DNA from: Mytilinidion resinicola
Lineage: Eukaryota > Ascomycota > Dothideomycetes > Mytilinidiales > Mytilinidiaceae
Assembly: GCF_010093595.1 (NCBI RefSeq)
Contig: NW_022985446.1
Location: forward strand, 248,001 to 312,000
Direction of reading: 5' to 3'
DNA length: 64,000 nucleotides
Position 1 is the stretch's first letter. The number at the start of each line of letters is the position of its first letter. Positions 5,281 to 54,913 of the stretch are shown here, piece after piece. The notes beneath the pieces were generated by a model. That model ran no database searches. It was not told where the DNA came from and was given only the letters and a program-made list of their open reading frames with translations. A program made the position numbers and the translations under genes.

Positions 5281-5849
5281 GCGAGAAATTTCCCTAGTCC
5301 TCTGCGGTTTATGAACGGGCGTTTTTCTTGAAGCTTTTTGCATACGGGACTCTTTTTTGGAATCGATCCCTTTTTGGGAACGATCCTTGCATCGAGACCT
5401 CGTCATATTGGGGAGCTTTGTATCATACAGACAGCTGGCTAGCTGCACTGGGGCATGGGGGATTGATCATATGGCGACTGGGCCGCCGAATAGGGATACT
5501 GGGATTATCCGGTAGATTGATTAAACCAATCGATACGTTCCCGGTTATTGAGCGGATATGCATGTGTAAGAACTTGAGTGCGCGTCCTTGCCGCTGGTTG
5601 TGGTGTCTCACGGTGGGTTTAGACTCTCGGATGGGATGTTCATTCTGTGATTTTGAACAATCTTGAAACTCGCGGAGCTCCCTCAGGCGGCAACAGCCTG
5701 ATGTACACAGATAGTGAACTGCACCGCTCCGCCATGGCGCGCAACCGAGTTGCGCAGTATATCTCACTTCGACCCCGTTTAGCACATGAAAACCAGTCCC
5801 CTACCATCCTCCCCCCAAAACCCTCCATTCCCACCCTCCCCCCCTTCCT
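5281..5849. other. convergent 3' intergenic region
   Basis: Separates the 3' ends of the carrier gene and the WW-domain gene. No supported gene; small reading frames have no recognisable features. Confidence 0.4.
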
Positions 5850-7237
5850 TTACCCAAACACCCTCCGATGATTATCCAGCTTGGTCGTCTGCGCCTCCAT
5901 GACCTGCGCGGCCGTCTGCACCGTATCCATGCGATGCAGCTCGGGCCGCTGCTGGTCCGTCTGCTCGTCGGGGTGCTTATCCACGAATAAGTCGATGATC
6001 TTGCCCTTGCCGGTCGCCCGCTGGTAGACGGCGAAGCTGGTGGCAAACTCCTTGTGCGCGCCGACTTGGATGGCGTCGAGCAGCGCGACGGCGAAGTTCT
6101 GGCAGTTGTTGCTGATGATGTTGTAGGCCGGGCGCACGGCGCGCATGTTGTGGATGACCATTTCGCCTGTGGGGGGTGGTTAGGGTGGGGCGTGGGGAAG
6201 GGGGAGGGGGGAGGGGGGAGGGAAGGGGGGACAAACCGGCTTGGCGCAGGGCTTCGTCGTTGAAGCGCGTCTTGCCGACGGAGAAGGTGTGCCACTCAGC
6301 GCGGTTTATTTTCTCGTTGATGTAGATGACGTCGAGGTGTTCGTCCTGCCGCCAACAACCACTGTTTGCTTAGTCCAGTCCACTTCCCAATCCGTACTGC
6401 TTGGAGAAATCGAGAAAAGTGGAACAGGGGAAGACAAAAACATCTCACCATCCAAAGCTCATGCGCATACTCGTCCACCAACACCGCCCAGTGCTGCGTT
6501 GGGTCTGGGTACTTGTTGATCTTCTCCGTGATCTTCTTGCCCAAGCCGGTCTTCTCGGCGAACCACTTGCCGCCGAAGCCGCCGACGGGGTGCCAGCCGA
6601 TCTCGACGAGGCGGGGTTCTTCGTCGATGGAGGCGTCGCCGGGGGGGATGGCGTTGGGGCGGTGGCCGAGGCCGAGGGAGTGCTCGAGGACCAGCTTGCT
6701 TTTGACGAGGCCGGTGTTCAGGCTTTCTTTTCTGGGGGAGGTGTGTGAGAGAGAGAAAGAAATGAAGGAGGAGAGAGCGGAGATTTTGAGACTTTTAGGA
6801 GATATATGAGATGTGATTTCTGAAATTGAAGAGGTGGCTCACAGGAATACACCCATCTTGCTACTAGCTGACTGTGGCCCTGGATCGGGGGTTTCAGTTT
6901 GTGGGACTTGCGGTCCTGTAAGTTGAACCTCTTGCGGGCTTGCCTCTGGCGCATTGGGATCGAAGCCTCTCTGGCCCTCGTAGTATGGCGCAGGAACTGG
7001 AGGCGGGGGATAAGCGCCGTATGTCTGCGGCGGCGGCGGCCCTGGTGGTGGTGCGAACATAGGGGGTTCCCATTGTGTAAGGCCTGTGGCTGTCTGAACG
7101 AAGAACCAGCGTTGGCTGCTCTGGTCGAATTGGGCGATCCATCCGGGAGGGAGCGGAGGCGTGTTAATTGTTTGAACGGGAGAAGGCGCTTGGACGGGAG
7201 TAGGGGGACCGGATGCTGAGTGGTTGAAATGATACAT
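5850..7237 (-). CDS. WW-domain protein with a possible permuted papain-like (LRAT/PPPDE-type) domain
   Basis: Starts at ATG 7237 (MYHFNHSASG). Residues about 29-60 form a WW domain (LPPGWIAQFDQSSQRWFFVQ...TQWEPP) with both signature tryptophans and the terminal Pro; WW domains bind Pro-rich ligands. A Pro/Gly-rich linker follows, then after an intron at about 6730-6840 a second domain containing HWAVLVDEYAHEL and, further on, SNNCQNFAVALLDAI. A His-containing strand preceding an NCxxF helix is the order expected of permuted NlpC/P60-like folds such as LRAT or PPPDE, where His and Cys form the active site. Three introns were placed by GT-AG signals. The stop is at 5850-5852. Function is unknown; deubiquitinase-like or acyltransferase-like activity is possible. 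The WW assignment is strong, the second domain is inferred. Confidence 0.7.
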
Positions 7238-7509
7238 GCTGAGGCTTGGTGTTGCGTGCTTGTATATGTGCTATAAGGAGGGGTAGAGCAGGATAAGGGT
7301 TGCGGACTACAGTGCAGTGAAACCTAGCTGGTGACCGTCCTGGCTAGCAAATCGCTAGCAGTAATGACTACTTCCAGCACAGCGAGTCTCAAGGAGGACC
7401 GAATGGGGCTCTTGGAGAACGTCTTGATGCTGGGAAAGCTGACCATAGCACGTGACCGGCGACAGATTGGGCAAAAGGATGGCTTGCTTACTAACCTACA
7501 GACATTCTA

Positions 7510-7947
7510 ACGTAGTCGGCAAGCTAGTGGGCCATGCAAGCTAGTGGGCCACCCAATTATTGGTGCGATTTAGACCTTTTAGCACCCCAGCAATCTCAAC
7601 AATCACAGAATATTCCAGGTTATGACTTAGGATAATGATATCCGTGGTTATTTTAATATCATCTGTTAATTTTTTAGATCTCTTGATAGCCCTGTTTAGC
7701 CGCAGTAAAATGTTGCCTAGTTTTGGCCCCCAAAATCAAGTAATACCTACAATATAATAGGATTACGCTGCCATACTGCTCCAAACATTCTTTTAGCTAT
7801 TAAAATGAGCTAGATAGTATATGCAATCTTAAAGCTATACTTTATATCTCGTGGTTGTTGAGATTGCTGGGGTGCTAAAAGGTCTAAATCGCACCAAAAA
7901 TTGGGTGGCCCACTAGCTTGCATGGCCCACTAGCTTGCCGACTACGT
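7510..7947. mobile_element. 438-bp MITE with about 90-bp terminal inverted repeats
   Basis: The left end (7510 onward, beginning ACGTAGTCGGCAAGCTAGTG) is matched by the reverse complement of the right end (to 7947) over about 90 bp with almost no mismatches. The element is flanked by TA on both sides (7508-7509 and 7948-7949), the target duplication of Tc1/mariner/pogo elements. Each inverted repeat contains a direct repeat of the 12-mer AAGCTAGTGGGC, a likely transposase-binding repeat. The interior is AT-rich and has no coding capacity, so the element is non-autonomous. Near-identity of the ends suggests recent insertion. Confidence 0.9.
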
Positions 7948-9475
7948 TAGTTAGTTACAACTCGCATTCTATTATTTCCATAGCAGCATCTGATCATTCC
8001 GAGATTAGGAGAGTTTCCTCACAGTACTGTGAAGCTTCTCCGCCAAAACCTCAGATTATACATTTGAGTCATGCAAAAGTTTCAAAACACCTCTGGGCAT
8101 TACACACTCGGACCCCGAAGCGTCTAATCTGCCCCCCACCATCCGTCGATCTGATATCCACAGCGGTGAGAGCGTCCACGAATCGGGTCGCTGCTGACAC
8201 GCCGCTATCGCCTCGCGCACCGATTGGCGTCGTCCTTCTCCAGACACAACCTCGACGACAGTTCATCAAAAGTCTCGAATCCGCGTCAATTACCCCCAAC
8301 AGCACCGCACAGCATCAGAGACCACGCTCTAGACGCTCGCGTGATCAGATTCCCGACCTCAACATGTCCATGGCTCTTATCACCACCACCACCCATGCTT
8401 CTGGAACGGTCCACCACCAGACCGCCTCGAGGGAAGGGCAGCCAATTGAAGCACCTCCCCACCCTCCGCTAAGAGGCTACCGAGTCCCTGCATTTGCGAC
8501 GACTTAGCTCTAACGACGCCGATCCAGGGTCCCGGGGGACTTCCTCAGGGCCACGAGCTCCGTTGCTCGGAAGAAATCGCCAGCGATAGAGAGTACCACG
8601 GTATCAGCTACATCGCGTGCTTATCCATGACCCCCGGGATGACTCGCAACTGGCGTAGACTTGATTCCAGAAGTTCCTCAAGCGGTGGAGGAAAGCTGAA
8701 TTGAAACTCTGCATCTGTTAGGAGCAGCTGCACGCGAGGTGCATTGAGGCTGCTCGCTACTGTACTCCGTATGTAGGTGCTGGAGTGCATAGCTCTAGCC
8801 ACGCCGCGGTATGCAATGCAAGTATGGGAAGAGCGCGCTCTCATCGGTAAGGCGGGCGTCCTCGGGACCGCCTCACTCCAATGGCACCACGTTCCCGCCA
8901 TGTATAGGTACCAGTACATGCACGCTCACCTTATCGCCCGCAGCCGGCGCTCCGGGGCGAGCATCGGAGAAGCACCCCCCTCCCCATGCACACACACTTG
9001 CATGGCAGCTGAAGATTGGCGGCAGGTCCGGGGTTGGCTGGCTGACTGCCCACCGACTCTGCGTATAAGAACTGCCTTTGTCCCCGGGGCTTCGGAGAGG
9101 GTGGTTCGGAATTCTTTATTTCCTTTACCGAGAACAGAGAAACAAAGGCAGTTTTCGATAAGGCAGAGTTCCAGAACACGCGTGGAAGCGAGAGAGAAAT
9201 ATACGAGGTCGATCTTTTGAAGCTGTCTCGCGATCGCGTATACGTTTGCGTGAGTCTTTTCGGCGCGAATTCTTTTTCAGCGCGTGAGCATTTCTTGGAG
9301 TCGAGGTGAGTGATTTAGTTAGAGGCGACCATGTTGCCTCTTCTGCCTTCTTGCTTGTACACCACAGCCTTCAGCTCGAGACACCGTGCAGTATGACCGG
9401 AATGATCCATCCTCCCGATTTTCCTCAGCATATATCCCGCGCACCCCGCTAACTTCTTCACCTAAACAGCCATCA

Positions 9476-30883: not shown

Positions 30884-31771
30884 TCAGCTCCCCGTAAAAG
30901 CAAGTGCTAACTCCCCAAGCTCCTCAGTCTCCAATTCGCCATCATCCTCGTCTAACACATCCGTCCAGCTTACAAGATCTTCGTCCATTTCTACCTCCAC
31001 CGGCCCGTCTTCCGTCTTACTTTCTTCCTCCAATTTGCCCGCGAATCTCTTCACACCCTCCACCCGCGGACCCTTATCCTCCAATCTCGGCGTGAAGCTG
31101 CGCCCGATAGCCCATGCAGGTCTCCGCACGGCCTTGTACTGCACCGCGAAGATATGGCTCCCAAGGCTCAAGCCAGCTAGCTTCCGCGAGGTACTGCTTC
31201 CCTTCTCGCCCTTCAGCTTAGGGTTGATTCCAGGGACAACCACACCCGTTGTGGCCGCAAGAGTTGCGGTCAGGGGCGCCGTCACGCTGCCGGATACAGA
31301 GGACTCAAGAGATCGGACGTCAGTGAAACTTGCGTCGGTCCATATCAGCACCGCAACAATCATGAATGCTGGTTTCCCTCCTGGTGTTAACATTCGCCCT
31401 AAGTCGGCTTTGACTTCGTCATTCTGTCGCATTGAATCGAAAATCGTGTCGTATTTTTGCACCCGTACGCTTAGGATTTCTGGCGTCTTGAAGTCTGTGC
31501 CGCCTGAGCTTGACTTGGACGCGGCGGCGGAGGCGGATTTGGAGAGTGCAGCCGATAAGGATGCGTTGTTTGAGCCGGAGAGAATGCTGCTGGTGTTGAC
31601 GAGGGCGTTTGCGGAGACGGGGGTTGTGATAAATGGCGAGGGGTCAGAAGGTGTGTATGAGGCGTCGGGTTCTGCATAATGTTTGACAATTCGGCCAAGC
31701 CAGAGGGCGATGTCAGAGGCGGGGATCAAGCGCTCTGGGTCGAGGAGATAGAAAAATGGAGTGTCGGCCAT
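30884..31771 (-). CDS. gasdermin-like (RCD-1/HET-Q1 type) cell-death protein, candidate
   Basis: Single exon, 295 residues, ATG 31771 (MADTPFFYLLDPERL), stop at 30884. The open frame extends upstream but this ATG gives the family-like start: a hydrophobic strand FFYLLD, an amphipathic helix (IALWLGRIV) and Tyr/Pro-rich sequence ending YTPSDPSPF. The middle is alanine/serine-rich (SLSAALSKSASAAASKS), then alternating beta-strand sequence (AFMIVAVLIWTDASF, HIFAVQYKAVRR), and an acidic C-terminal tail (EVEMDEDLVSWTDVLDEDDGELETEE). Fungal gasdermin-like proteins of this length are pore-forming cell-death executors, and by published work many sit next to a gene for a subtilisin or CHAT protease that cleaves off a short C-terminal tail. 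Here the divergent neighbour is a CHAT-STAND gene. Assignment rests on length, start, tail and neighbourhood; no alignment could be run. Confidence 0.6.
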   Translation of the reverse strand: MADTPFFYLLDPERLIPASDIALWLGRIVKHYAEPDASYTPSDPSPFITTPVSANALVNTSSILSGSNNASLSAALSKSASAAASKSSSGGTDFKTPEILSVRVQKYDTIFDSMRQNDEVKADLGRMLTPGGKPAFMIVAVLIWTDASFTDVRSLESSVSGSVTAPLTATLAATTGVVVPGINPKLKGEKGSSTSRKLAGLSLGSHIFAVQYKAVRRPAWAIGRSFTPRLEDKGPRVEGVKRFAGKLEEESKTEDGPVEVEMDEDLVSWTDVLDEDDGELETEELGELALAFTGS

Positions 31772-32238
31772 GATGTGGATTGTGGGTATGATCACGTGAC
31801 GTTGGATATGATGGAAGTCGCGGCTGCCAGAGGCGATGGAGTCCTGGAACACTTTAAAGACTTTCTCGCCTCGCTCCGTCGTTTCGTTGCTGCCTAGGAG
31901 GGGTACGTAGTAGAAAAAGCAAGTTCTGGGCCGCAGCAACCTTGGCTAGACCAATATTCAGCCGCAGACTGCGGATACCACGGAATCGCCAGAGCTGAAC
32001 TCGCAGCTCAGCCTCGCCAACAATGCGCAGCCTTGAACTCTTTGGGAAGTGGTAAGCGGGATCTAGACCATTTATCACGCTCTATAGCCCATGTGAATCC
32101 AGTTTCTGTCGCATACGTTATGCCCAGCAAATTGCTACCACGTCTTTTATATCAGGCGTCTGCCCAGGGCTGAGGCAGCAAGGTGGGCACCAAGTACGCA
32201 AATCCAAAACCAGCGAATTGAGTTGAATAACGAGCAAA
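31772..32238. promoter_or_regulatory. shared divergent promoter of gasdermin-like and CHAT-STAND genes
   Basis: A 467-bp region between two genes transcribed away from each other, compatible with co-regulation. It contains a palindromic TCACGTGA at 31792-31799, 21 bp upstream of the gasdermin-like ATG. Confidence 0.5.
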
Positions 32239-35200
32239 ATGAGCGTTCTTACAATCACTCCGTTTCTATCAAGCCATAAACATCCAACTTCGATCTCCTA
32301 TGACAGTTCTGCAACAACGTGCCTGATCGTGGACCATGAACTTGGCCGCCATATTGAGCGGGAAATCCCCACACTGTCGACAGCATCTTTAGAGGAGTTT
32401 CGCTGGTACCTCGAGGACTACGCCGAGCTTGATCCATTCAATAGCGAGCGTGCGTCGAAAGCGTTCTCCGCTCTCGTAGCTTACGGCAAGGAGCTTGTAG
32501 CCTCACTCAACCTCGCCGCTTTCCTACCCCCATCGAAATTAAACGAGCCACTCGTAGTCAGAGTCGAGGAACCGGCGCAGGAAGAATTAACCGCAATTGT
32601 GTTCTGGGAAGTATTGGAACGCTTAGAACTGTGGCGCCCCTCGCAACGTCCTACGTCGGTTAATATCATCCGAGTCATTGTCCGAAAACAAGGTCGCGAA
32701 GAGGCAAACTCGTCCACTGCCAGAGCAAAACACACGAGTATCCTCCGTGTACTCATTGTGACTGCCCGCTCCGGTGAAGACAATGATGTTGCGCCACGAC
32801 TCGTATCCCGGCTCATCGTAGAGGCCTCAAAGCGGTATGAAAACACCATCAACGTGGAGGTCGTCCGTCCAGGTACATTCGAAGCCCTTAAGACGCACCT
32901 TGAATCGCAAGAGCCAGGCTACTTCAACGTTCTTCATTTCGATATGCACGGCGTGGAGGACACGGCAAGTGGCACTATGTTCTTGAAGTTTGTCAAGCAC
33001 GAGGCCGGATCCGAGTATCTCAAGCTGCGGTCTGATTATCGCACTGCCGCAGAAGTGGGCGAGTTGCTCCAAAAGCGAGCAGTGGGCCAGGTTGTGCTGA
33101 ACGCGTGTCGATCTGCGTATGGGTCTAGTCCAGAGACGAACATTGCGAGTGCATTCGTCCATGCCGGGGTGCCTGCCGTCGTGGCCATGAGCTTCACAAT
33201 TGCAGACCGAAGCGTGGAAGTCTTCACTGAAGCGCTCTATCGAGGACTAGCAGAACACAGATTGCCACTAGAGGCGGCAGCATCTCTTGCACGGCGAGCC
33301 ATGGTTCGCAACTCGAATCGAACCACAAAGATAGGGAGTGAGGTCAAGGTCGTGGACTCAATTGTGCCAGTCGTTTACCTAGATGCCTCAGTCGATAGAC
33401 CATTCCCAGAGGCGCTCCCGGAGCTCGAAGGTCTGGAAGAGGAACAAGACCTACGACGATTATTCCCGTATGGGCGCGAAACAGATATTATGCACCTTGA
33501 ATCAGCCCTGCTTATCGGAAGCAAACCCGTCCTCCTCACCGGACCCCCTGGAATTGGTAAGACGACTCTGCTGAAGCATCTCCGCCGCTGGTGGGCAGTC
33601 ACGGGCCTTGTGGAAGATGCCATACATATCCAATTGCCCGCGGACCCATTTGATGCGGATGCTCTTTACTCTCGCTTACAGGGCTACTTTACTGGTATCA
33701 AGTCTCCCGTGGTGCCAGCGAAGCTCTTTGCACATCTGAATAAACACAGATGCGTCATTATTCTCGATCGCCTCGAAGCAGTAAACATGGCTCGGAAGTA
33801 CGGCGTCTTCATCAAATTCATAAAAGCCCTTGCTAAAACGCAAGCGCTTGTGGTGATCGCTTCCCGGCGCTCAGAGAAATGGCTCGGCGCAGCAACAGTC
33901 CCTCATCGCCTATCTGGCCTTCGCACCGTTCCTGGAACGCAGGTTGTTTACGGCATATTGACTAGTGCGCAGCAGCTGATGAATATCGGAGATTATAAGT
34001 CCGAGGAAGACTTCCAGTATCTGGAACAGATAGTAAATCTGACCTATGGAAACCCACTAGCGATTCGCCTCCTGGCTCAAGATGGGCTGTGTCTACTGAA
34101 GAGTCCTAAAGAGTACTACTTCGACATGTTAAGTGGCAAACATGTCATGCTGAACCGGTGGGAAGCGAGACGAACGGAGAGCTTGCGCAGCGTTATGCAA
34201 CTCGATGAGATCGCGGACGAGCTCATGCCGAAGCGCTTGGGGGATGGTTTCACACCCGCCGTCTTTGCTTGCTTTCAACAGGTATTACCAGTGAATGACC
34301 TGGGGAAGTATGTCCAGCTGTGGAGCATGGCTACACAAAAGTTCATGGGCAACACTCCGCAACAAAAGGCTAAGGCCACACTCGAGATGTTGGAGAACTC
34401 TGGAATGGACATGGATGATATGAGTGAGAATATGAAAAATATGGTTCTATTGATGCGACTTGTGGCTAGTTCCAGCGAAGAGGAGGTGCCGAAACCAAAA
34501 GCAGACTTGGCAAGTATCATTATTGCCTATGAGGAAATTGATTTTCCCGAAGTACCTATGGTCAGTGAGATACTGGAGTCCGGCTGCACAAGGTTCGTGT
34601 CAATGTTGGAGGAAGCAGGATTTCTGGAGAAGTTGCCAGCGAATACGGCCACGATCGAAGGGGATCAGGGTAGGAAAGATAGGGGCTCCATGGCTCTACA
34701 CCCACTGATCCCCATACTCATGAGGGCGCAACCGGGTTATGAGGAAAACGCACTGAGGATTGCTGAGTCAATAAAGCAAGGGTTCGTCCACTACTACTGC
34801 TATCGCACGAAACAGTGGCCCTGGTCCAAAATCTACTACAGCCCGACCTGGACACAACCTCGGGAAGAGTTGCATACAGAGTTTGGTAATTTCGCGGCTG
34901 CCACCTTGATTGGACTGCAGAGCGATACATCCGACTCCTTGCAACTAATGTGCCTGTTTCGACTTGTCAGCGTTATCCAGCGCGGTGTACTCAAGGACCC
35001 AGGACGACTCCGAATCGTTGCCGTTCTCTGGGAGCTTGCCCTTACCCGTATTCTCAAAGAAGTAGACACCCTTAAGATTGAGGCGAAGGAGAAGCCATCC
35101 AATCTCTTGGCATCTCTCGAATCTCTGATCGGCGGACTCACGTCTTGGACCCAACCCACTCCAGAACCACGGTCCGAGGAAGAAGAAACGGCCGAAATGG

Positions 35201-35898
35201 CCATTTTTGTTCTACGAGGTATTGCGATGAACTTGGCTGCCAACCTTGGGGGACACTTCCACCGTCTACATTCCCCTGAAGCCGCTAAGTTCATCAAAGT
35301 CGCCCAGTCGATCATTGACGATGCCCGGGCGCACCTGCCAGCAAGCATCCCGCCGGAGCAGAAGGAAAAGATGAAGCGCGCTTTTCAACACTGCGAATTC
35401 GGTATCCGACTTGTGCTTAATCCTCCTAGTAATGAGCGCGCGAAGAGTGAAGTCTTTAAGGAAAGAATGGCTTATCAGCGGCTCATATTGGCGGACGAGG
35501 GCAGTGAAGAGTATCCGGAGAACCAGAAATCGTGGGAGGACATTCCCGTTGAGATTTTGTCGTTATCGGCGCCGTTTGGGCACATGATTCCGATATATAG
35601 GGATATCCGTGCTGCGATCAAGAGGAAGGACTGGAAAGAAGCAGAAAGAGTTGTGGATGAGGCCTTTGTGATGGAGCTGAACGACGCGAGTAATGATATT
35701 ATCAACAAAGCGGGTCTTCTACAAATTAGAAGTGAGATTGCGCAGGGCCAGGGACAGTGGAAGAATGCTCTTGAGCATTTGCAGGAAGCTTGGAGGCTGC
35801 AAGATGGGGTCAGTGGTGGATATTTGTCGGAAGAGGAGCAAAAAGAGAGGACGAGGATGGTAGAGCAGTTGAAGAGGAGAGGTGGGGAAGTTGGGTAG
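32239..35898 (+). CDS. CHAT protease - STAND NTPase - helical/TPR repeat protein (NLR-like)
   Basis: Single exon, 1219 residues, from ATG 32239 (MSVLTITPF) to the stop at 35898. Order of domains: N-terminal segment about 1-170; CHAT (caspase-like) peptidase about 170-390 with the catalytic His in HFDMHG (H237) and the catalytic Cys in VVLNACRSA (C290), followed by GVPAVVAMSF, the usual CHAT motif; STAND/NTPase about 410-640 with Walker A GPPGIGKTT (435-443), Walker B CVIILDRLE (505 onward) and a sensor-like VVIASRRSEKW; then helical repeats, with TPR-like pairs near the end (WKEAERVVDEAF; GQWKNALEHLQEAWRL). CHAT-NLR architecture is known for proteins controlling fungal gasdermin-like partners by cleavage. 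The adjacent divergent gene is the candidate substrate. Both key residues and the P-loop are intact, so an active enzyme is expected. Confidence 0.9.
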   Translation: MSVLTITPFLSSHKHPTSISYDSSATTCLIVDHELGRHIEREIPTLSTASLEEFRWYLEDYAELDPFNSERASKAFSALVAYGKELVASLNLAAFLPPSKLNEPLVVRVEEPAQEELTAIVFWEVLERLELWRPSQRPTSVNIIRVIVRKQGREEANSSTARAKHTSILRVLIVTARSGEDNDVAPRLVSRLIVEASKRYENTINVEVVRPGTFEALKTHLESQEPGYFNVLHFDMHGVEDTASGTMFLKFVKHEAGSEYLKLRSDYRTAAEVGELLQKRAVGQVVLNACRSAYGSSPETNIASAFVHAGVPAVVAMSFTIADRSVEVFTEALYRGLAEHRLPLEAAASLARRAMVRNSNRTTKIGSEVKVVDSIVPVVYLDASVDRPFPEALPELEGLEEEQDLRRLFPYGRETDIMHLESALLIGSKPVLLTGPPGIGKTTLLKHLRRWWAVTGLVEDAIHIQLPADPFDADALYSRLQGYFTGIKSPVVPAKLFAHLNKHRCVIILDRLEAVNMARKYGVFIKFIKALAKTQALVVIASRRSEKWLGAATVPHRLSGLRTVPGTQVVYGILTSAQQLMNIGDYKSEEDFQYLEQIVNLTYGNPLAIRLLAQDGLCLLKSPKEYYFDMLSGKHVMLNRWEARRTESLRSVMQLDEIADELMPKRLGDGFTPAVFACFQQVLPVNDLGKYVQLWSMATQKFMGNTPQQKAKATLEMLENSGMDMDDMSENMKNMVLLMRLVASSSEEEVPKPKADLASIIIAYEEIDFPEVPMVSEILESGCTRFVSMLEEAGFLEKLPANTATIEGDQGRKDRGSMALHPLIPILMRAQPGYEENALRIAESIKQGFVHYYCYRTKQWPWSKIYYSPTWTQPREELHTEFGNFAAATLIGLQSDTSDSLQLMCLFRLVSVIQRGVLKDPGRLRIVAVLWELALTRILKEVDTLKIEAKEKPSNLLASLESLIGGLTSWTQPTPEPRSEEEETAEMAIFVLRGIAMNLAANLGGHFHRLHSPEAAKFIKVAQSIIDDARAHLPASIPPEQKEKMKRAFQHCEFGIRLVLNPPSNERAKSEVFKERMAYQRLILADEGSEEYPENQKSWEDIPVEILSLSAPFGHMIPIYRDIRAAIKRKDWKEAERVVDEAFVMELNDASNDIINKAGLLQIRSEIAQGQGQWKNALEHLQEAWRLQDGVSGGYLSEEEQKERTRMVEQLKRRGGEVG

Positions 35899-52381: not shown

Positions 52382-54913
52382 ATGTCCACCCTACCCCCCA
52401 CCACTGCCTTTCGAAACCCCGGCCTCGAAACCCCCGGCCTCGAAAACCTCGAAAACCTAAAACAGCACTTCATCCATTCTGCTCGCATGATGAGCATAGC
52501 CGCCTTCCATGCCGTCCTCCGAAGCCCACTCGTCTCCAAAGCCTGGTTTTATCTCCCCAGTCACTGTCAAATTTTCATCCTCCACCCCCTAGGCTCTCTA
52601 TTGCTCCTTTTTCAACTATCAGAAACACGGCAGTTGTGCCTGAGTATATTAGAATGGATCAATACCGACGCCCCATGCATAGGACTACTAGGGAAGATGT
52701 GGGGAGATGCGGGCGAAGTGTGCAAGTATCTGATTACTAGAGTTCTGCTGCATTTTGTTTCATTTCCGATTCTTAAATCCTTACTCAAGGTAGAGCTGTA
52801 CGCGCTCCTACTCTCTGGCAGCCTGGTCATTCTTTGGATCTACCTCGCCCGCGCCCACCAGGCCATCATTACCGCCGCCATCCTCATTGCGGTCCTAATC
52901 CCCAACCTCCCCCTCCTCACGATTTTCCACGGCCCCAGCGCGCTGATAAACGCGTTCACATACGTCCAAATCGACCTCTCAATCCTTTACCGTCGGTTCT
53001 GGGCACCCTTCATCCTCTCCGGCGGCACACGTGATCACAGCCACTACCCACCATACACCTACACGCCCCTCCCAACCCCTCGCTCCATCCGCCTCCTCCG
53101 CATCCACCCCCGCCGCTCCCGCACCCTCCACTGCACGCTCGAAACCCACACGCTCGGCGACCCGCGCACGCCCGCCTACGACGCCCTCTCCTACCACTGG
53201 GGCTCCTCCACCCGCACGCACACCATCCTGCTGCACTCGCCCTCGTCCTCCCCCCGCGGCGCGCAGCCGCCGCCGCTGCCAACGCCAACGCGCCTCCCCG
53301 TCCCCGCCAACTGCTTTAAAGCCCTCGCCGACCGCGCCTCGGTCCGCGAGCCGCGCGTCGTCTGGATCGACTTCCTGTGCATCGCGCAGCGCGACGCGCG
53401 CGAGAAAGCCGTGCAGCTCCCGCTCATGCGCGCCATCTACAGCGCCGCACGGCGCACGGTGGCGTGGGTGGGCGACGCGCACGACGGCAAGCGCGCCGAC
53501 AGCTTGGTCAAGCGCATGTTCGTCGCGAACGCGAGCGCGCCGGCGCGCCCCCGCGAGGCCCGGCTCGCGAGCTTGGTCGAGGCCAACAGCGGCGCTGCGC
53601 GGGATCGCGAGGCGGCCGCGCTAAGGGACATGCTGGCGCAGGCGTACTGGTTCCGCGTGTGGATGATCCAGGAGGTGGCGGTGGCGCGGCGCGTGGATGT
53701 AAGGTATGGGAATGCGTGGGTCGAGTGGGATATGCTGGCGGCCGTGTGTGCAGTGATTGGGGATCCGGCGAGGAGGAATCTGGCGCAGGCGATGGTCGTC
53801 TTTGATGGCGGGCGCGGGATTGGGTGGGCCCAGGTGAGCACGCTCGATCGGTTTAGGGAGGAGGTGCAGGAGGGGCGGGAAGTGAGTCTTGTGCACTTGC
53901 TTAGCGAGATGGGGGCGTTCGGCGCGACGGAGAAGCAAGATCATGTGTTCAGTCTTGTGGCGGTGAGTGCGGATAAGGGGGATGCGAGGCTGTTTGAGGA
54001 TTCTGGGCGGACGCCGGCGGAGGTGTTTGCGCATACGACGAGGTTGTCGCTGGAGCAGGATGAGAGGCTGTCGGCGTTGGGCTTTGCGGGCATTGGACAT
54101 GAATGGGAGGTCCAAGGGCTACCGTCTTGGGTGCCGGATTATAGCTGTCTGCCGAAGACGTCGCTGTTGCAGAAGATGACGAATAAGAGGTTTTACAAAG
54201 CGTCCGGTAGAACGAAACAGAAGGTATCGATTGACACGTCGTCGAATACGTTGTCGGTACGAGCGCTTGCAATCGACAACATCGCCACGGTGTCCAAACA
54301 CTTTGTCCGCCGAAAACAGGACGAGAAAGATGCTTCCGAGTCCTTTGCCGAACAACGCGGGCCATTCCAGGAGGATGTAGAGCTCTTAGCACGTCGCTGT
54401 GACGAGAGATACCCTGTGGGTACCAGCACTCAGAGTCGTCGAGAGGCCACATGGCGGACACTGATTGGGAATTGCGTTCATCCGATGACGACGCATGACA
54501 GTCTTGAATACCCAGCTCCAATGTCTCTTGCGAACGGAGACCAAGCAACGAAACGACTCCTTGGTTTCGAATCTCGCTCTAAAGGCTTGGATCCAAGCAA
54601 GCATCAACTAGACCCCGATATTGCAGCCTCGCTTCTGGAAGATCTGAAACTATCGAGTGAATACGGTGCTGCCGAGGCAGCTTGCGCCTATGGGAGGCGC
54701 TTCGCAGTGACTGATGGTGGGAAGATGGCGATGGTGCCACCGGGCGCGAGACAGGGCGACTTAGTAGTCGTGATTTTGGGAGCCGAGATGCCATTCCTAG
54801 TGAGAAACACTGAAAGCGAGTCGTGGATGCTAGTTGGCGAGTGCTACGTTCATGGGTTGATGGAAGGCGAGGCAGTGGGACAATATTCTCCTGAGACGTT
54901 TGCACTCATATAA
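52382..54913 (+). CDS. HET-domain (heterokaryon incompatibility) protein, membrane-anchored
   Basis: Single exon, 843 residues, ATG 52382 (MSTLPPTTAFRNPG) to the stop at 54911-54913. A hydrophobic region at about residues 138-182 (LLSGSLVILWIYLA, ITAAILIAVLIPNLPLLTIF) precedes the HET domain (about 266-430): YDALSYHWG, VWIDFLCIAQRDAREKAVQLPLM, AIYSAARRTVAWVGDAHD, and WFRVWMIQEVAVAR. HET domains act in vegetative incompatibility and related cell-death responses. The C-terminal part (GQYSPETFAL end) contains a second conserved block (WVPDYSCLPK, FAVTDGGKMAMVPPGARQGD, VVVILGAEMPFLVRN) usual for this type of HET protein. Most of the first 500 codons are extremely GC-rich in third positions. Intact, so likely functional. 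Confidence 0.92.
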   Translation: MSTLPPTTAFRNPGLETPGLENLENLKQHFIHSARMMSIAAFHAVLRSPLVSKAWFYLPSHCQIFILHPLGSLLLLFQLSETRQLCLSILEWINTDAPCIGLLGKMWGDAGEVCKYLITRVLLHFVSFPILKSLLKVELYALLLSGSLVILWIYLARAHQAIITAAILIAVLIPNLPLLTIFHGPSALINAFTYVQIDLSILYRRFWAPFILSGGTRDHSHYPPYTYTPLPTPRSIRLLRIHPRRSRTLHCTLETHTLGDPRTPAYDALSYHWGSSTRTHTILLHSPSSSPRGAQPPPLPTPTRLPVPANCFKALADRASVREPRVVWIDFLCIAQRDAREKAVQLPLMRAIYSAARRTVAWVGDAHDGKRADSLVKRMFVANASAPARPREARLASLVEANSGAARDREAAALRDMLAQAYWFRVWMIQEVAVARRVDVRYGNAWVEWDMLAAVCAVIGDPARRNLAQAMVVFDGGRGIGWAQVSTLDRFREEVQEGREVSLVHLLSEMGAFGATEKQDHVFSLVAVSADKGDARLFEDSGRTPAEVFAHTTRLSLEQDERLSALGFAGIGHEWEVQGLPSWVPDYSCLPKTSLLQKMTNKRFYKASGRTKQKVSIDTSSNTLSVRALAIDNIATVSKHFVRRKQDEKDASESFAEQRGPFQEDVELLARRCDERYPVGTSTQSRREATWRTLIGNCVHPMTTHDSLEYPAPMSLANGDQATKRLLGFESRSKGLDPSKHQLDPDIAASLLEDLKLSSEYGAAEAACAYGRRFAVTDGGKMAMVPPGARQGDLVVVILGAEMPFLVRNTESESWMLVGECYVHGLMEGEAVGQYSPETFALI

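Follow-up and report, generated by a model that had tools for sequence, protein, structure and literature searches.

The window analyzed here, a stretch of 64,000 nucleotides (C10:248001–312000), comes from a fungal genome of 47.1 Mb in 44 contigs and contains two divergently transcribed genes. On the reverse strand, an unbroken frame (30884..31771) encodes a gasdermin-like pore-forming protein of the fungal type, 295 amino acids in length; on the forward strand, a second unbroken frame (32239..35898) encodes a protein of 1219 amino acids that combines a CHAT protease domain with a STAND ATPase. An ORF check found both frames where the original prediction had placed them, with ATG starts and no internal stops, and the intergenic region common to the two start codons (31772..32238) has precisely the 467 bp given there for a shared promoter. 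The gasdermin gene has, at this distance, a protease (CHAT) gene as its neighbor. On its far side lies a 561-residue RING-finger frame (PF13639; 27850–29535, reverse strand), and a HET-domain (heterokaryon incompatibility) gene, an 843-residue frame on the forward strand (52382–54913; PF06985, E 8.4e-24), is located about 16 kb from the pair.

By homology and predicted fold, the 295-aa protein is a fungal gasdermin. The gasdermin fold had been set in advance as the test of the original prediction, and both the fold search and the sequence profile return fungal gasdermins. The best match of the predicted structure is RCD-1 of Neurospora crassa, and the predicted pore-forming domain (residues about 1–237; 31061..31771, reverse strand), delimited from the AlphaFold2 model mb0f621036568 and via the alignment of residues 4–237 to 8jyy_G, has long beta strands at 135–158 and 191–216. 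Among PDB sequences, profile A3 matches RCD-1-1 (E 3.3e-6) and RCD-1-2 (E 3.2e-4), with a weak match to HET-Q1 (E 0.1). A Pfam search gives no match for the protein, and a PDB sequence search with the single protein or with profile A1 yields no gasdermin among the matches. The gasdermin models are of low confidence (mean pLDDT 47–56); the model built from alignment A1 only, with the second gasdermin family (see below) left out, already singled out gasdermins, and in a PDB search with that second family alone, RCD-1 and HET-Q1 account for all five matches, albeit weak ones (E 0.017–0.53).

The C-terminal tail of the gasdermin (residues about 238–295; 30887..31060, reverse strand) consists of a variable linker followed by a conserved acidic motif (258–276). 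The acidity noted in the original prediction is pronounced, with a net charge of −15 over residues 258–295, and extends to all 24 rows of alignment A3, in which the net charge lies between −9 and −19, with −9 seen in a protein that terminates early. Across a selection of six distinct sequences, none of the 22 columns of the linker (236–257) is invariant, compared with five of the 19 columns of the motif. The linker comprises 22 residues in the window gasdermin and reaches as many as 61 among the Fusarium sequences; in P0006–P0011 and P0013 (from Annulohypoxylon, Fusarium and one other source), an acidic linker of 54–61 residues precedes the conserved motif. These longer linkers might be accompanied by a different protease partner. 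Judged from the alignment, a variable tether in front of a conserved acidic end is what would be expected of an inhibitory tail that is freed by cleavage.

The CHAT domain of the 1219-residue protein is real: PF12770 spans residues 201–361 (32839..33321, forward strand) with E 1.2e-15 and 58.1 bits, against a cut-off of 24. The two residues proposed as catalytic are indeed the CHAT histidine, H237 (in LHFDMHG), and cysteine, C290 (in VLNACRSA). In 12 relatives, namely the five nearest and seven named fungal matches chosen among the 120 of 392 matches listed, the cysteine is kept throughout and the histidine in 10; of the other two, P0017 starts after the histidine, while in P0018 that block is missing and the P-loop, too, is altered. 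A P-loop NTPase of the STAND (NACHT-like) type follows (AAA_16 span 411–539; 33469..33855, forward strand), with the P-loop GPPGIGKTT at the predicted residues 435–443 and the Walker B aspartate at D510. AAA (PF00004) passes its cut-off (22.4 bits vs 21.2), AAA_16 falls just under it (32.2 vs 32.6) and NACHT stays below (21.2 vs 26.7) in the window protein, and all six members of A5 have a NACHT match at E ≤ 0.01 (best E 5.3e-6). The PDB matches with the best E-values for the ATPase are to NLRP4F, weak at 0.028 and 0.029, with NLRP9 at 0.44. The helical or TPR repeats that had been predicted for the remainder of the protein did not materialize as recognizable families: over the 1219 residues, all Pfam repeat families, TPR, ANK and WD40 included, stay below their cut-offs. 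The C-terminal region (residues 621–1219; 34099..35895, forward strand) is the presumed sensor.

The closest named relative of the gasdermin is found in Lophium mytilinum (Mytilinidiales, Dothideomycetes), and so is that of the CHAT-STAND protein among the matches listed (120 of 392). The first of these, BU16DRAFT_530324, is identical to the window gasdermin at 281 of 295 residues (95.3%) and, as a full-length protein, is itself 295 residues long, which supports the start of the window gene. For the second, BU16DRAFT_621394, 1005 of 1209 aligned residues are identical (83.1%), and the start of the CHAT-STAND protein is less secure, given the poor alignment of its first 50 residues (28 of 40 aligned residues identical, 10 gaps). 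Identity is 90.2% over residues 161–385 (CHAT) and 88.5% over 386–620 (ATPase), followed by 78.9, 83.0 and 77.6% in three successive stretches of residues 621–1219; the lower C-terminal values hint at a fast-changing sensor and, in a comparison without background genes, are only suggestive. Both L. mytilinum genes belong to a contig of 1,613,766 bases, so the two are probably linked there as well. The names of these counterparts go no further than hypothetical, uncharacterized or CHAT domain-containing protein.

The genome contains seven CHAT matches: the window gene, separase and five others. The expectation that CHAT genes would have gasdermin partners, followed here within this genome only, is borne out for one of these five, which has a divergent gasdermin, and not for three, near which none was found; the fifth is not judgeable because of N stretches. 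In the recurrent case, a gasdermin on the reverse strand (C22:73995–74816), which represents a different gasdermin family with its own set of relatives and is only 23% identical to the window gasdermin, is paired with a 1675-residue TPR-CHAT frame on the forward strand (C22:75044–80068; TPR matches below cut-offs), the first methionine of which is 242 bp from the gasdermin start. The chance of a random gene lying within 10 kb of a CHAT match is about 0.003. A third, more distant gasdermin-like frame of 258 aa (L022:1174–1950, reverse strand; C2, about 2.971 Mb) is detected by profile A3 with E 1.4e-6 among the loci compared, with no CHAT or S8 match found near it; an LCAT match of the adjoining 992-residue frame stays below threshold. 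Thus, two of the three gasdermin-like genes found in the genome with four query proteins are paired with CHAT. Because both proteins of the window pair have relatives elsewhere, their observation is not a matter of chance. At another place (C20, about 0.52 Mb), a Peptidase_C14 (caspase-domain) frame (L013:3310–5394, forward strand) converges on a TPR-CHAT frame (5486–8692, reverse strand), so that two caspase-clan proteins lie side by side, about 90 bp apart.

Systems of this kind are already known: PMC10197012 describes CHAT-bearing NLR proteins along with CHAT genes near gasdermins, counting about 1900 fungal gasdermins, about 19% of them near CHAT genes, and dozens of NLR or NLR-like proteins that carry CHAT. 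The presence of CHAT and a STAND body in one chain, which the original prediction had singled out as special, is accordingly less distinctive, this architecture having been published beside gasdermin genes (PMC10197012, PMC9815663). The nearest counterparts, as presented in PMC10197012, PMC12881547 and PMC9815663, are the two-gene gasdermin/protease clusters with NLR-type CHAT proteins (Q2L) of Clave et al. 2022, in which a gasdermin gene likewise adjoins an NLR-like receptor with CHAT as the N-terminal effector; by contrast, Pfam recognizes no repeats in the window receptor and NACHT stays under the cut-off there, and its gasdermin is distant from the second one of the same genome. According to PMC12881547, a gasdermin of Podospora anserina is activated with a TPR-bearing CHAT protease. 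There, too, the CHAT protease gene is clustered with a gasdermin gene, but CHAT goes with TPR, whereas in the window protein it is N-terminal to a STAND ATPase; as far as that system is described there, the C22 pair is the closer match in architecture. RCD-1 is the best fold match and a profile-level sequence match of the window gasdermin, which differs in its acidic tail beyond the aligned domain; the trigger of RCD-1 is the pairing of two allelic variants, not cleavage (PMC12881547). In the case of HET-Q1 of P. anserina, a protease removes a short C-terminal fragment of about 5 kDa (PMC12881547); that protease, HET-Q2, is a subtilisin-like serine protease, unlike CHAT. No paper on these particular genes was found among the three listed for L. 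mytilinum, judged by titles, and the papers listed on fungal gasdermins (CHAT, NLR, proteases, Dothideomycetes) consisted of reviews, structural papers and work on other loci or systems.

The gasdermin fold and profile, the CHAT domain and the second pair support the original reading of the locus, and the two genes probably constitute, by themselves, a module for regulated cell death of the fungal gasdermin/protease type. In the resting state, the short, strongly acidic tail would keep the pore-forming domain (about 1–237) inactive. The large protein would act as an NLR-like receptor, with an N-terminal caspase-like CHAT protease, a NACHT-type ATPase and a long C-terminal region serving to detect a signal, be it non-self, infection or fusion with a different strain. 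On detection, the receptor would assemble and activate CHAT, which would then cleave the variable linker of the gasdermin ahead of the acidic motif; the freed pore-forming domain would oligomerize in the membrane, with death of the hyphal compartment as the result. The mammalian inflammasome consists of an NLR sensor, the caspase-clan protease caspase-1 and gasdermin D. The window pair, with its NLR-like sensor, caspase-clan protease and gasdermin, would resemble it in the way it works and is no member of that system: its sensor and protease are in one chain and the proposed inhibitory tail is about 58 residues long.

The signal could plausibly be either non-self encountered after hyphal fusion or an infection. 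That the pair is specifically a heterokaryon incompatibility (allorecognition) locus, polymorphic among strains, and not a general infection sensor, is compatible with the cell-death module and concerns the signal only; we consider it unlikely, even if the gasdermins het-Q1 and rcd-1 and the CHAT gene hetB of Aspergillus fumigatus, tied to heterokaryon incompatibility, act in this process (PMC12881547, PMC11138114), the HET-domain gene is 16 kb away and the receptor is less conserved than the gasdermin with respect to L. mytilinum. The faster divergence of the receptor comes from one close named relative, compared without background genes, and may mean nothing.

Less probable still is that the two genes are merely adjacent and the gasdermin is controlled by another protease or by allelic pairing, in the manner of RCD-1. 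The action of RCD-1 without cleavage (PMC12881547), the third gasdermin-like frame without a CHAT or S8 match nearby and the lack of CHAT-STAND relatives from the named Fusarium and Annulohypoxylon gasdermin species among the matches listed (120 of 392) would agree with this, but the divergent gasdermin/CHAT arrangement is found once more in this genome, made up of distant proteins, and the tail beyond the RCD-1-like domain is acidic in every A3 row. Finally, that the protein is not a gasdermin and that a low-confidence model produced a spurious fold match is hardly credible: the low pLDDT, the missing Pfam match and the unproductive single-protein and A1 searches are outweighed by two routes, sequence profile and fold, that single out gasdermins, by the same outcome for the A1-only model and by the weak matches of the second family alone to RCD-1 and HET-Q1.

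The cell-death module admits a more speculative elaboration, which we regard as doubtful. A separate gasdermin clade, unseen by Pfam, would carry its conserved acidic motif, on a linker that varies greatly in length and sequence, as a detachable electrostatic plug of the pore-forming domain, and an unusually complete one-chain NACHT/caspase-like receptor would diverge faster than the conserved executioner, tracking changing non-self signals.

The pair is a real, well-supported further case of the known gasdermin/CHAT-receptor arrangement, which with it comes to include a divergent clade of gasdermins, from a Lophium relative (Mytilinidiales). Compact, made of unbroken frames and with sensor and protease in one chain, it lends itself to the question, posed in PMC12881547, of what the gasdermin receptors of fungi perceive.
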